DNA of 64,000 bases from Chryseobacterium taklimakanense (GTDB taxonomy: Bacteria > Bacteroidota > Bacteroidia > Flavobacteriales > Weeksellaceae): NCBI RefSeq assembly GCF_900187185.1, contig NZ_LT906465.1:1550001-1614000 (forward strand), given 5' to 3'. How positions within the stretch are numbered: the first letter of the stretch is position 1; every line of letters starts with the position of its first letter. The notes beneath the pieces are model-generated. The model was given only the letters and a program-made list of their open reading frames with translations, was not told where the DNA came from and did not search any database. The position numbers were made by a program, and so were the translations under genes. Positions 17,475 through 54,616 of this stretch are shown piece after piece.

Positions 17475-17539
17475 AAAATTTGATTTTCTAAAAATAAAAA
17501 CCTGTCGTGTCTAGACTGCACCCAAAAGTTTAGACAAAA

Positions 17540-18328
17540 TTAAACAATATTCTCAAAGGAAAGAGTTCGGTACTGTACCGGACTCTTTCCTTTGAGATTG
17601 AGTCTTATTCTATCATTGTTGTAATAGTGAATGTACTTCACTATTTCCATCTTAAGTTCCTGAATGGAACCAAACTTTCTGGTATAAAACATTTCTGATT
17701 TTATTGTTCCAAAAAAGTTCTCTATCACCGCATTGTCCAAACAGTTTCCTTTTCTGGACATACTTTGAATAATGCCTTTTTCTTTTAACAAGTTTTGGTA
17801 ATGTTTCATTTGATACTGCCAACCTTGATCAGAATGTAGAATGATGTTTTGTGTAGATTTTACTTTTCTGAATGATTTCTTTAGCATCCTGATGATTTGG
17901 CTGAACACAGGTCTTTCAGATAGGTCAAAACTGACAATTTCACCATTAAATAGATCGATGATTGGAGATAGGTAAAGTTTATTACCCGATACATTAAACT
18001 CTGTAACATCGGTTGCCCATTTCTGATTAGGAGCGTCCGATTTGAAATTCCTCTGTAGAACATTGGGCGCAATTTTCCCTTGCTCTCCCTTGTAAGATTT
18101 ATATTTCTTCACTCGGATAATACTCTTTAAACCTAATATTTTCATAAGTCGTAAAACAGTTTTGTGATTAATCAAAATTCCTTTTTCTTTCAAAAGCAAA
18201 GTAATTCTTCTATAGCCCAACCTTCCTTTGTGACGATGATAAATCTGCTTAATCATTTCTTTTATTTCCGCATATTTATCTTTCATTTGAAAGCGTTTTT
18301 GATAGTAATAAAAACTGCTTCTTGCCAT
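17540..18328 (-). CDS. IS3-family transposase OrfB (DDE integrase domain), copy 1
   Basis: A 262-residue catalytic part. An HTH_21-like N-terminus (HRHKGRLGYRRITLLLKEKG) precedes the rve integrase core. The catalytic triad is Asp107 (WATDVTEF), Asp167 (LHSDQGWQY) and Glu203 (NAVIENFFGTIKSE); the D-35-E spacing is classical. It is probably made mainly as an OrfAB fusion through a -1 frameshift at CTTTTTT on this strand (18421-18427, A6G in the mRNA); the -1 frame is open from there to the ATG. The last codons coincide with a 22-bp hairpin (17552-17596). Confidence 0.93.
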   Translation of the reverse strand: MARSSFYYYQKRFQMKDKYAEIKEMIKQIYHRHKGRLGYRRITLLLKEKGILINHKTVLRLMKILGLKSIIRVKKYKSYKGEQGKIAPNVLQRNFKSDAPNQKWATDVTEFNVSGNKLYLSPIIDLFNGEIVSFDLSERPVFSQIIRMLKKSFRKVKSTQNIILHSDQGWQYQMKHYQNLLKEKGIIQSMSRKGNCLDNAVIENFFGTIKSEMFYTRKFGSIQELKMEIVKYIHYYNNDRIRLNLKGKSPVQYRTLSFENIV

Positions 18329-18369
18329 CGATGTACAATCCAGCAGTACTGCTAAATCAAAGTCCTGCC

Positions 18370-18894
18370 TTAACTCTTCGATGGCTTTGGATTTTTCCTT
18401 TCCTGAATTAAGGCGTCTAACTTTTTTAAAATGGCGTTCTCGGCTTCTAAATAATAAATCCTCTCCAACAGTTCTTCCTCCCTTGTTAAGGGTTTGCCTG
18501 TTTTCTTTTTTTTTCGCTTGTAATTACTCATGGTTTTAGGTCTTCCCCTGGGTCTGTTTTCTAAACCTAAAATACCATTTTTTTTGTAATTACGCTGCCA
18601 ACTAAGAATACTGGACTCCGCAGGAATATTAAACCTTCTCGACGCTTCTTTTAAACTTAAATTCTCTTTCTCAATTACTGATAAAATCTTTAATTTAAAA
18701 TCTTTTGTGTAATGCCTATTGGAAAGCCGAACAAGTCCTGAAACTCCATAAAGTTCATAAAATTTTATCCATTTACGAACCAATGAACCACAAACTCCAA
18801 TGCGTTTTCCTAAATCGTCTGTTCCAATGTCACCTTTGTGATATCTCTTTATAGCTTTTAATTTAAAGTCTGCTGAATATTTACTTTTCCCCAT
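18370..18894 (-). CDS. IS3-family OrfA, copy 1
   Basis: A 174-residue DNA-binding part of the transposase. Two helix-turn-helix regions are visible (YSADFKLKAIKRYHKGDIGTDDLGKRIGV and FKLKILSVIEKENLSLKEASRRFNI, SILSWQRNYKKNG), then a basic RGRPK stretch and a C-terminal leucine-zipper-like segment (EEELLERIYYLEAENAILKKL) that ends at the frameshift site. The start at ATG 18894 matches copy 2. A longer frame into flanking DNA exists but runs through the IS end and the host terminator, so it is not used. Confidence 0.92.
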   Translation of the reverse strand: MGKSKYSADFKLKAIKRYHKGDIGTDDLGKRIGVCGSLVRKWIKFYELYGVSGLVRLSNRHYTKDFKLKILSVIEKENLSLKEASRRFNIPAESSILSWQRNYKKNGILGLENRPRGRPKTMSNYKRKKKKTGKPLTREEELLERIYYLEAENAILKKLDALIQERKNPKPSKS

Positions 18895-18933
18895 AAAAAA
18901 TGCCCCTAAAAAGTGTCTAACTTTTTGGGGGCA
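18895..18933 (-). terminator. Intrinsic terminator inside the IS3 end, before orfA (copy 1)
   Basis: On the minus strand, TGCCCCCAAAAAG, a 7-nt loop and CTTTTTAGGGGCA are followed by T6 and directly by the orfA ATG. It would stop transcription entering from the GLPGLI gene. Confidence 0.75.
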
Positions 18934-18961
18934 GTCCAGTCGCTCGACAGGTTTTTTTATT

Positions 18962-51952: not shown

Positions 51953-52460
51953 ATGGAAAAAAGTATTGTTGGCATTTGCGTTTGCAGCATTCGGACTGGC
52001 CAGCGCGCAAAACGACGCTTTCAGTGGTAAAGGTGACGCAAGAGTAAATGTTGGTGCAAACTTCCAAAAAGGTGGTACAGGTATTCAAACATCTTTGGAT
52101 TACGGTTTAGGCGAAAGCTTTTCTATCGGTGCTCAGGCTGGGTATCTTTTAGGTGTTAAAGAATATGATGGCGAAAAACCATCCGGAACTCACCGCTTTG
52201 ATGCAAAAGCGAGATTGAGTGCACACCTTGGCGATGTTTTGGGATTACCGGAAAACTTTGACATCTATCCTGGACTGAACTTAGGTTTGAAGAATTTCGG
52301 CGGCCACGTAGGTTCAAGAGTATTTTTCGATAAAGGTTTCGGACTTTTCGCAGAGGCACAGTTTCCAATCGCGAAATTCAACACGGAAGCTTCTTCTTAC
52401 AGATTGCTGAACAACCAGTTTGCATTTGCTGTTGGTGCTTCTTTCGACCTTACTAAATAA
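51953..52460 (+). pseudogene. DUF6646-like outer membrane protein with a frameshift at the start
   Basis: The frame that encodes the protein is open from 51954 to 52460 but has no ATG; its first TTG codons are at 51966 and 51969. The ATG at 51953 is one base out of frame. Dropping the G at 51956 joins ATG to AAAAAAGTATTG, giving MKKVLLAFAFAAFGLASAQ, a perfect signal peptide. The mature part (NDAFSGKGDARVNVGANFQKGG to LNNQFAFAVGASFDLTK) has alternating hydrophobic strands and looks like a small outer-membrane beta-barrel of the DUF6646 type. Either a real mutation, a sequencing error in the G/A run, or weak TTG initiation. IS3 copy 2 lies 37 bases after its stop. Confidence 0.75.
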
Positions 52461-52502
52461 GTTGAAATTTAGTTCAAAATAAAATCCCGGATTAATCTGG
52501 AC

Positions 52503-52541
52503 TGCCCCCAAAAAGTTAGACACTTTTTAGGGGCATTTTTT
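52503..52541 (+). terminator. Intrinsic terminator inside the IS3 end, before orfA (copy 2)
   Basis: TGCCCCCAAAAAG (52503-52515), loop TTAGACA, CTTTTTAGGGGCA (52523-52535) with one mismatch, then T6 (52536-52541). The orfA ATG is the next base, so no promoter fits between terminator and gene. Confidence 0.78.
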
Positions 52542-53066
52542 ATGGGGAAAAGTAAATATTCAGCAGACTTTAAATTAAAAGCTATAAAGAGATATCACAA
52601 AGGTGACATTGGAACAGACGATTTAGGAAAACGCATTGGAGTTTGTGGTTCATTGGTTCGTAAATGGATAAAATTTTATGAACTTTATGGAGTTTCAGGA
52701 CTTGTTCGGCTTTCCAATAGGCATTACACAAAAGATTTTAAATTAAAGATTTTATCAGTAATTGAGAAAGAGAATTTAAGTTTAAAAGAAGCGTCGAGAA
52801 GGTTTAATATTCCTGCGGAGTCCAGTATTCTTAGTTGGCAGCGTAATTACAAAAAAAATGGTATTTTAGGTTTAGAAAACAGACCCAGGGGAAGACCTAA
52901 AACCATGAGTAATTACAAGCGAAAAAAAAAGAAAACAGGCAAACCCTTAACAAGGGAGGAAGAACTGTTGGAGAGGATTTATTATTTAGAAGCCGAGAAC
53001 GCCATTTTAAAAAAGTTAGACGCCTTAATTCAGGAAAGGAAAAATCCAAAGCCATCGAAGAGTTAA
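52542..53066 (+). CDS. IS3-family OrfA, copy 2
   Basis: 174 residues, identical to OrfA of copy 1: two helix-turn-helix regions, a basic RGRPK segment and a C-terminal zipper-like helix. The start ATG directly follows the T6 run of the IS terminator. The frameshift site AAAAAAG is at 53009-53015; from there the -1 frame reads without stop to orfB, giving a fusion that continues VRRLNSGKEKSKAIEELR. Confidence 0.93.
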   Translation: MGKSKYSADFKLKAIKRYHKGDIGTDDLGKRIGVCGSLVRKWIKFYELYGVSGLVRLSNRHYTKDFKLKILSVIEKENLSLKEASRRFNIPAESSILSWQRNYKKNGILGLENRPRGRPKTMSNYKRKKKKTGKPLTREEELLERIYYLEAENAILKKLDALIQERKNPKPSKS

Positions 53067-53107
53067 GGCAGGACTTTGATTTAGCAGTACTGCTGGATTG
53101 TACATCG

Positions 53108-53896
53108 ATGGCAAGAAGCAGTTTTTATTACTATCAAAAACGCTTTCAAATGAAAGATAAATATGCGGAAATAAAAGAAATGATTAAGCAGATTTATCAT
53201 CGTCACAAAGGAAGGTTGGGCTATAGAAGAATTACTTTGCTTTTGAAAGAAAAAGGAATTTTGATTAATCACAAAACTGTTTTACGACTTATGAAAATAT
53301 TAGGTTTAAAGAGTATTATCCGAGTGAAGAAATATAAATCTTACAAGGGAGAGCAAGGGAAAATTGCGCCCAATGTTCTACAGAGGAATTTCAAATCGGA
53401 CGCTCCTAATCAGAAATGGGCAACCGATGTTACAGAGTTTAATGTATCGGGTAATAAACTTTACCTATCTCCAATCATCGATCTATTTAATGGTGAAATT
53501 GTCAGTTTTGACCTATCTGAAAGACCTGTGTTCAGCCAAATCATCAGGATGCTAAAGAAATCATTCAGAAAAGTAAAATCTACACAAAACATCATTCTAC
53601 ATTCTGATCAAGGTTGGCAGTATCAAATGAAACATTACCAAAACTTGTTAAAAGAAAAAGGCATTATTCAAAGTATGTCCAGAAAAGGAAACTGTTTGGA
53701 CAATGCGGTGATAGAGAACTTTTTTGGAACAATAAAATCAGAAATGTTTTATACCAGAAAGTTTGGTTCCATTCAGGAACTTAAGATGGAAATAGTGAAG
53801 TACATTCACTATTACAACAATGATAGAATAAGACTCAATCTCAAAGGAAAGAGTCCGGTACAGTACCGAACTCTTTCCTTTGAGAATATTGTTTAA
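53108..53896 (+). CDS. IS3-family transposase OrfB (DDE integrase domain), copy 2
   Basis: 262 residues, identical to copy 1, with the triad Asp107, Asp167 and Glu203. It is in the -1 frame relative to orfA, and the frame is open upstream to the A6G site, as expected for programmed frameshifting. Bases 53840-53884, within the last codons, form a 22-bp hairpin with one mismatch (arms beginning CTCAAAGGAAAGAG), which may end the transposase mRNA or stabilise it. Confidence 0.94.
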   Translation: MARSSFYYYQKRFQMKDKYAEIKEMIKQIYHRHKGRLGYRRITLLLKEKGILINHKTVLRLMKILGLKSIIRVKKYKSYKGEQGKIAPNVLQRNFKSDAPNQKWATDVTEFNVSGNKLYLSPIIDLFNGEIVSFDLSERPVFSQIIRMLKKSFRKVKSTQNIILHSDQGWQYQMKHYQNLLKEKGIIQSMSRKGNCLDNAVIENFFGTIKSEMFYTRKFGSIQELKMEIVKYIHYYNNDRIRLNLKGKSPVQYRTLSFENIV

Positions 53897-53938
53897 TTTT
53901 GTCTAAACTTTTGGGTGCAGTCTAATCTCGGGATTTTT

Positions 53939-54616
53939 TTATGATTTTTCAGATTTCTTTACGCCGTGGAAGTCCTTAAGATAGAAAGGTTCAAAATAGG
54001 CCACATCTTCAAAATCTTTATTATTAAATTTTTCTGCAGCCTTTTTAATTAAATATTGTGCCGAAGGAAATATATCTTCCTTGTACTCCGCATTTTCTAA
54101 TTTTAAAATTTCTTTGGCTTTTGTGCAGCCGTCTCCAACAAACAAAATTTTCTTGCCGGAATATTGCTGAAACGAACTTTCATCCAAAATAAGATTATCG
54201 GTTTTGGAAAGTTCCTGTCCGATTTTTCCGTCATAAACTGCAGTGTAAACCTCCATTCGCCGGGCATCAATTAAAGGAATAATTAATTCAAATCCCTGGT
54301 CCACAAACGGCTCCACCATGGTCTCCATAGAATTTATTGCAATCAAAGGAACATTTAACCCAAAGCAAAATCCTTTAGCCGCCGAAGCGCCGATCCGTAA
54401 TCCGGTGTAGGAACCCGGACCTTTCCCCAATGAAACCGCATCAATGTCCTTCAAACTGATTTCAGCACCTTCAAAAGCCCATTCAACAAACGTGTGCAGG
54501 CTTTCGCTCTGCTTATAATTTTCCGAAACTTCTTCGCAAAGACAAAGCAGTTTTTCACCATCAGAAATGGCGACCGAGCAGTTTTTTGAAGAGGTTTCCA
54601 GGTGTAAGATTTTCAT
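53939..54616 (-). CDS. tsaB: tRNA N6-threonylcarbamoyladenosine synthesis protein TsaB
   Basis: The partner of TsaD in making t6A at position 37 of ANN-decoding tRNAs. 225 residues of the ASKHA fold: ILHLETSSKNCSVAISDG, VEWAFEGAEISLKDIDAVSLGKGPGSYTGLRIGASAAKGFCFGLNVPLIAINSMETM, and PLIDARRMEVYTAVY. The stop codon lies just inside the T-run of the split terminator. It follows the SDR gene by 9 bases and is probably cotranscribed with it. Confidence 0.95.
   Translation of the reverse strand: MKILHLETSSKNCSVAISDGEKLLCLCEEVSENYKQSESLHTFVEWAFEGAEISLKDIDAVSLGKGPGSYTGLRIGASAAKGFCFGLNVPLIAINSMETMVEPFVDQGFELIIPLIDARRMEVYTAVYDGKIGQELSKTDNLILDESSFQQYSGKKILFVGDGCTKAKEILKLENAEYKEDIFPSAQYLIKKAAEKFNNKDFEDVAYFEPFYLKDFHGVKKSEKS

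Follow-up and report, generated by a model that had tools for sequence, protein, structure and literature searches.

Terminator-like hairpins as insertion sites of an IS150-type element of Chryseobacterium taklimakanense and its relatives

Among IS3-family elements, ISPsy8 of Pseudomonas syringae lies in 5 of 5 copies on the symmetry axis of a hairpin predicted for a REP sequence, and IS1397 and ISKpn1 insert in the REP/PU palindromes of enterobacteria, their transposases apparently setting the target specificity (PMC1525189). IS1272/TnSha1 (IS1182 family) is reported to hit hairpins without a primary sequence consensus, several of them terminators confirmed by RNA-seq (PMC4923244, PMC5678879). 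Group IIC introns take intrinsic terminators as landmarks (PMC3522654). For the IS150 group, no report of terminator targeting was found in the literature searched, subscription journals, ISfinder and TnPedia lying outside its scope.

Here we describe an IS150-type element that occurs twice in a window of 64,000 nucleotides (the whole stretch of DNA analysed) from C. taklimakanense, together with the insertion sites of its relatives.

The element and the target site of copy 2

Table 1. Positions, in window coordinates, of copy 1, of copy 2 and its parts, and of the target site and genes around copy 2.
Feature	Position	Strand	Remark
Copy 1, same element	17512-18938	-	duplication GTC (17509-17511, 18939-18941)
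DUF6646 protein gene	51966-52460	+	convergent, upstream of copy 2
Left half-stem of split terminator-like hairpin	52481-52489	no strand	AAAATCCCG
Loop 5' segment GATTA	52490-52494	no strand	ahead of target duplication
Target site duplication ATC, left	52495-52497	no strand	
IS3-family (IS150-type) insertion sequence, copy 2	52498-53924	+	1427 bp
Left terminal inverted repeat	52498-52522	+	TGGACTGCCCCCAAAAAGTTAGACA; 21/26 positions agree with right end
Terminator-like hairpin and T6 from left inverted repeat	52503-52541	+	ends just ahead of orfA
orfA	52542-53066	+	174 aa; helix-turn-helix domains HTH_Tnp_1 and HTH_28
Heptamer A AAA AAG	53009-53015	+	inside orfA/orfB overlap; presumed -1 frameshift site
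orfB, DDE integrase-like transposase	53108-53896	+	262 aa from ATG; D-D-35-E
Imperfect palindrome, end of orfB	53839-53885	no strand	47 bp; 94% self match on other strand
Right terminal inverted repeat	53900-53924	+	TGTCTAAACTTTTGGGTGCAGTCTA; tip TA instead of CA
Target site duplication ATC, right	53925-53927	no strand	
Right half-stem of split terminator-like hairpin	53929-53937	no strand	CGGGATTTT
tsaB (T6A_YeaZ)	53939-54616	-	convergent, downstream of copy 2

The 25-bp inverted repeats of the element and its 3-bp duplication fit the IS3 family. Its right tip TA is shared with most relatives from the Bacteroidota, CA being found in most other relatives. The orfB frame is open from about 52913 and overlaps that of orfA at 52913-53066; going by IS150-type elements in general, we take the heptamer in this overlap to be the putative site of frameshifting. 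OrfB matched the profiles NF033516 (319.7 bits, cut-off 160), PF00665 and PF13276, and 35 residues lead from the second D to the E of its catalytic motif, as counted by eye on the translation. It is 58% identical to the OrfB of E. coli IS150, whose OrfA has 173 residues against 174 here. From the closeness of the transposase and the long OrfA the element is assigned to the IS150 group, as we presume that group to be defined. The 47-bp palindrome at the end of orfB is common to all seven copies in the genome.

The left end of copy 2 also holds a hairpin of its own, TGCCCCCAAAAAGT-tagac-ACTTTTTAGGGGCA-TTTTTT. Such a left-end hairpin with a T-run occurs in 20 of 31 distinct elements against 2% of letter-shuffled ends. 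A terminator in the right end was considered as well, and dropped as a claim with just 4 of 31 elements against 1% of shuffles. The left-end hairpin may keep read-through from reaching the transposase gene; it may also terminate the transcript of the upstream gene in place of the terminator that was split, so that it would act as shield and replacement at once.

Across 52481-53937 the order is AAAATCCCG, GATTA, ATC, the element, ATC, T and CGGGATTTT. A preliminary description of this DNA had claimed exact reverse-complement arms around copy 2 and, after excision, a 9-bp stem with a 9-nt loop between convergent genes, and both claims hold: the outer segments are exact reverse complements, and removal of the element with one ATC gives AAAATCCCG-GATTAATCT-CGGGATTTT, with a stem of 9 bp (10 bp with a G.T pair) and a loop of 9 nt. 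The site of copy 1 is the loop of AAAAACCTGTCG-tgtcgct-CGACAGGTTTTT, a 12-bp stem with a 7-nt loop. That the two sites share no sequence, as had also been stated, is true of the inner stem and loop and has to be limited to them, since both sites possess a frame of A-tract and T-tract with neighbouring C/G, as do most target hairpins.

The tsaB gene is present in 30 of 31 genomes, the source genome counted in. A DUF6646 gene was found within reach of tsaB in 0 of the 29 other loci (some of which end at contig edges), and these loci therefore yielded no strict empty homologue for the site of copy 2. A hairpin score of at least 9 is reached within 35 nt of the tsaB end in 6 of 18 other loci of the same family.

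Insertion sites in the genome and among relatives

The 2.76-Mb chromosome contains seven full copies, which are 99-100% identical. All seven have a 3-4-bp duplication that lies in, or touches, the loop of a hairpin once the element is removed; the hairpin score is at least 7 at each, and RNAfold gives the seven rejoined 56-nt sites -11.6 to -16.5 kcal/mol. In the window outside both copies this score is reached at 2.9% of 60,943 positions, at 12.2% of the 4,076 intergenic ones and at 2.2% of coding ones. The chance of seven in seven is thus p ~1.6e-11 from all window positions or 4e-7 from the intergenic positions, and chance placement is ruled out by these copies together with the wider survey.

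A scan of named genomes supplied a first set of relatives, the best 80 of 566 confirmed stretches being kept, and family-wide searches added more. Element ends were picked by inverted-repeat match and duplication, the hairpin never being used. We left out 45 duplicates, 6 loci lacking ends, 24 whose inverted repeats were weak and 13 at the edge of a contig, which reduced the 225 loci that had a transposase hit to 137 distinct sites; 31 of the 137 are without duplication and were excluded from the counts that follow. A first tally gave 106 sites with a duplication of at least 3, of which 93 score at least 7. The final set, again of 106, has the sites of E. coli IS150 and IS1397 (5 with duplication) set apart and 5 new sites from genome G055 added. 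Its transposases are 55-100% identical to that of the window element, and the hosts of the relatives sampled belong to the Bacteroidota, Bacillota and Pseudomonadota, with one Streptomyces.

In the final set 96 sites score at least 7, 93 at least 8 and 80 at least 10, with a median of 11.5. Two pairs of sites share both flanks; with these merged, 94 of 104 score at least 7. The duplication measures 3 bp at 87 sites, 4 bp at 18 and 5 bp at one. Ten sites fall under the threshold, six of which fold as an imperfect hairpin round the insertion when RNAfold structures are judged by eye; by the same procedure no hairpin was seen round the insertion at the other four, L040, L061, L132 and L162. Among the 31 copies without duplication (e.g. 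L026, L037, L069 and L129), 12 score at least 7 and the other 19 are without hairpin. Ends or flanks may have been rearranged at these 31 sites. Some of them seemingly have half a hairpin left in one flank, which recombination between copies or an adjacent deletion would be expected to produce.

Random flank positions in the same loci reach the threshold in 2.6% of 2950 cases. Other IS elements, scored in the same way with ends taken from copy alignment or annotation, reach it at 2 of 42 sites: 1 of 30 for five elements from the same host family, each present in several copies and with a transposase of related type, and 1 of 12 for E. coli IS1, IS2, IS3, IS5 and IS30. Control copies are often without duplication (8 of 11 in genome G008), and some control flanks may be rearranged; two control copies of G031 (L331 and L334) were removed for a core identity below 95%. 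The length of OrfA was considered as the cause of the trait and rejected: the control element G055b has an OrfA of 180 aa and is without the trait, so length alone is an insufficient explanation. At G000:C1 345641-346992 and in three other places (L234-L237) there is another multi-copy element of IS3 type, whose ends are AGTTCCCCCC; TAT stands on both sides of all four copies, and the hairpin is absent.

These controls also bear on the idea that insertion is random and that copies simply survive at harmless spots downstream of genes. The site of copy 2 is intergenic, and IS elements are generally expected to persist better between genes. Survival leaves unexplained why the insertions lie about 1 nt from a symmetry axis; the other elements of the same host family show 1 of 30 sites, the intergenic chance is 12%, and a split terminator should be no safer than the spot beside it. 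We therefore regard selection as the sole cause as very improbable.

Could the inverted repeats have been created by the insertion itself, say through inverted duplication of flanking DNA? Nothing beyond the inverted flanks themselves speaks for this. Ten rejoined sites from two genomes were used as queries for homologues spanning the junction, and ten such matches were examined, chosen for locus and long coverage, with shorter spanning matches left out. In 10 of 10 comparisons, which cover 6 sites, the empty homologue carries a hairpin in the corresponding position, with scores of 10-18. At these six sites a hairpin made by insertion is ruled out, and as a general account the idea deserves next to no credence. 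Empty homologues such as L369, that of L133, show that no bases were lost on insertion. In a single case the loop of L134, CGTAAA, is TTTACG (its exact reverse complement) in the empty homologue L373, as if the centre of the hairpin had been flipped. Cruciform resolution is known to produce flips of this kind.

A quickly built tree of 48 transposase clusters has 43 on the IS150 side, and in 36 of these hairpin sites predominate. Outside that side, at 99% SH-aLRT, stand the five control elements, with long outgroup branches. The hairpin group spans the Bacteroidota, Bacillota, Pseudomonadota and one Streptomyces. Two E. coli copies annotated as IS1397 lie inside this group, and have REP-like hairpins and 4-bp duplications.

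Structure, sequence and the proposed mechanism

Column statistics were obtained from 93 sites chosen for a stem of at least 8, with positions counted outward from the loop. Stem positions 1-8 hold 0.03-0.44 bits of sequence information per column and 1.5-1.8 bits of mutual information, and 94-99% of their pairs are Watson-Crick against 26-43% expected by composition; the selection for long stems accounts for part of this pairing, and does not account for the diversity of sequence. When arms were swapped between sites, 18.7% of 1590 swaps reached the threshold. Swaps within one genome pair in 12-60% of cases, with the highest values in Cupriavidus and G055, where stems are alike, and the stem sequence is therefore partly shared. 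The centre of the best hairpin found without constraint in 90 nt is at most 3 nt from the insertion at 97 of 106 sites. The offset of the insertion from the hairpin axis has an SD of 1.19 nt (n=92), against 3.98 for its distance to the T-run (n=83) and 5.34 for that to the A-run (n=82).

Target stems from 65 sites with at least 70% transposase identity to the window element are longer than those of 48 background terminator-like hairpins of the same genomes (median 12.5 vs 9.0, p=2e-6), and loops of at most 5 nt are found in 53 of these 65 targets and in 24 of the 48 background hairpins.

Farther out, at stem positions 9-14, the left arm is rich in A and the right arm in T, with 0.6-1.2 bits. 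This is what would be expected if the transposase were to read A- and T-tracts about 10 bp on either side, the hairpins merely following from the layout of terminators. Under a strict definition of the tract layout, hairpins are found at 39 of 222 window positions (18%) against 54 of 58 IS sites, and the layout is absent at 48 of 106 sites; moreover, the complementarity at stem positions 1-8 is far above column expectation. The comparison of tract layouts makes recognition of the tracts alone unlikely, and we consider sequence recognition improbable as an explanation of the targets.

A stronger contender is a transcription-coupled process, in which the complex is drawn to paused RNA polymerase, to the nascent RNA hairpin or to an R-loop at an intrinsic terminator. 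By a lenient measure, 83 of 93 target hairpins have tracts on both sides and 8 more have one; 2 (L053 and L087) have neither. Targets devoid of tracts are few (L064 and L190 are each flanked by a T-rich stretch at one side), which makes this explanation slightly likelier, and their rarity makes terminators as such hard to tell from dyads. Against it, insertion tracks the dyad axis (SD 1.2 nt) and keeps no constant distance from the T-run (SD 4.0). Dyads without tracts are used, namely L053, L087, L211 (which is without duplication and outside the 106) and the two REP-like sites of IS1397. No orientation bias relative to the tracts was seen among the target hairpins, although this result is uninformative since most targets are two-sided. 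Overall we judge the transcription-coupled explanation unlikely. In Paraburkholderia adhaesiva, the copies L087, L190 and L211 sit in long dyads of the type GTGTCCACCT..AGGTGGACAC or GTCCCCAC..GTGGGGAC, whose A/T tracts are absent or one-sided; L087 and L190 have both flanks in common, oppositely oriented, which suggests a target that is itself repeated.

Structure-directed targeting is, on these sequence comparisons, very probably a property of the sampled element group at large. The preliminary description had suggested that structure rather than sequence is recognised, and this is supported by the 96 of 106 loops, the tracking of the axis, the diverse and complementary stems and the 2 of 42 for other IS elements. 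A survey of insertion sites, which it had proposed, agrees with the same reading, 96 of 106 duplication-bearing sites being hairpin loops. Its judgement that two insertions out of two were improbable by chance proves to have been an understatement, with all seven copies in loops. The two hits in the window are indeed independent, as it had held, and the coincidence of two copies falls away, since the behaviour is that of the element group.

As the best explanation overall, and one that we think reasonably likely, we propose that this IS150-type element chooses its targets by DNA shape, with OrfAB acting on a cruciform. The targets would be short inverted repeats around a central stretch that mostly measures 3-9 nt, and repeats of this kind in genomes are mostly intrinsic terminators. 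OrfAB, perhaps aided by the second helix-turn-helix of the long OrfA, would bind a cruciform that is extruded, or easily melted, under negative supercoiling, and supercoiling from convergent transcription may assist the extrusion. DDE transposases of IS3-type elements make two staggered joins in double-stranded target DNA. Here the element ends would be joined 3-4 bp apart at the symmetry axis, giving rise to the 3-4-bp duplication in the loop. The geometry of the hairpin would resemble that of the junction in the element's own circle, where a 3-bp spacer separates two inverted repeats, so that one complex could act on both. Since proteins poorly sense self-complementarity in B-form DNA without reading its letters, a hairpin-forming state would be the simplest thing to sense. 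Whether it is the transposase that senses the cruciform we regard as evenly balanced, and extrusion of stems of 9-12 bp in vivo is doubtful.

More tentatively, and here we lean against it, the IS150 group may be a widely distributed clade of copy-out-paste-in DDE elements, sensing cruciforms like their own junction and swapping terminator for terminator. On that reading a hairpin with a 3-4-nt loop would share the geometry of the circle junction, by which the group would find extruded cruciforms; and since the left end of many copies would supply a terminator, their spread would be almost free of cost.

If shape-directed targeting is correct, intrinsic terminators would serve a widespread IS group quite generally as safe harbours, which would explain in part why such elements lie between convergent genes, and their insertions would be natural reporters of cruciform formation inside cells. 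Scattered reports of IS3 elements that target REP sequences would be joined under one rule, and the group would offer a simple test case for structure-specific target choice by a DDE transposase. Terminator prediction could locate empty and filled sites alike, and split terminators could be re-annotated. The behaviour would also suggest tools for insertion downstream of genes instead of inside them.

Comparison with known systems

E. coli IS150 resembles the window element in its 58% transposase identity, similar ends, 3-bp duplication and long OrfA, and differs from it in its targets. The E. coli records were hand-picked from spread lists, and 5 of 19 loci were removed as duplicates. None of the 11 distinct sites examined (L219-L221, L224, L256, L257, L260, L261, L263, L265 and L267) passed the short-loop hairpin test; 2 of the 11 have a stem of score 9 with a loop of 16-17 nt. 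The flanks show a sequence preference (GAGGC/GGGGC): in 9 of 11 the duplication is followed on the right by TGAGGC, CGAGGC or TGGGGC, and GCCCC or GCCTC often stands some 15-25 nt leftward, forming half sites of the type GCCCC..GAGGC. Eight of the 11 flank pairs adjoin loci of type I toxin-antitoxin systems (hokA, hokE, plasmid hok and ibs). Perhaps E. coli IS150 uses a stem with a larger loop together with a half-site. L181, a near twin of this element, is also an exception, and folds as an imperfect hairpin.

ISPsy8 is like the window element in family, in its 3-bp direct repeat and in its insertion at a hairpin axis; it uses one repeated REP and one fixed point, so that sequence and structure are inseparable there, whereas the window element has mostly terminator-like targets with differing stems (PMC1525189). 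Likewise, the targets of IS1397 and ISKpn1 are presented there as repeated and sequence-specific, while in the window element's group the stems vary by site (PMC1525189). Targeting of the REP type, with a repeated palindrome hit at one sequence position, is thus not what was observed, since stems differ from site to site. Group IIC introns differ in that they retrohome downstream of the terminator and pair with IBS motifs (PMC3522654). IS1272/TnSha1, of an unrelated family, is reported to insert bluntly in the stem, with part of the hairpin lost and no duplication (PMC4923244, PMC5678879). With the window element nothing is lost, and the insertion is staggered by 3-4 bp in the loop; replacement of the stem-loop was not found, all 7 copies and the 106 sites having duplications of 3-5 bp. 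From the sequences compared, the trait in the window element's group appears to reach wider than in these precedents.
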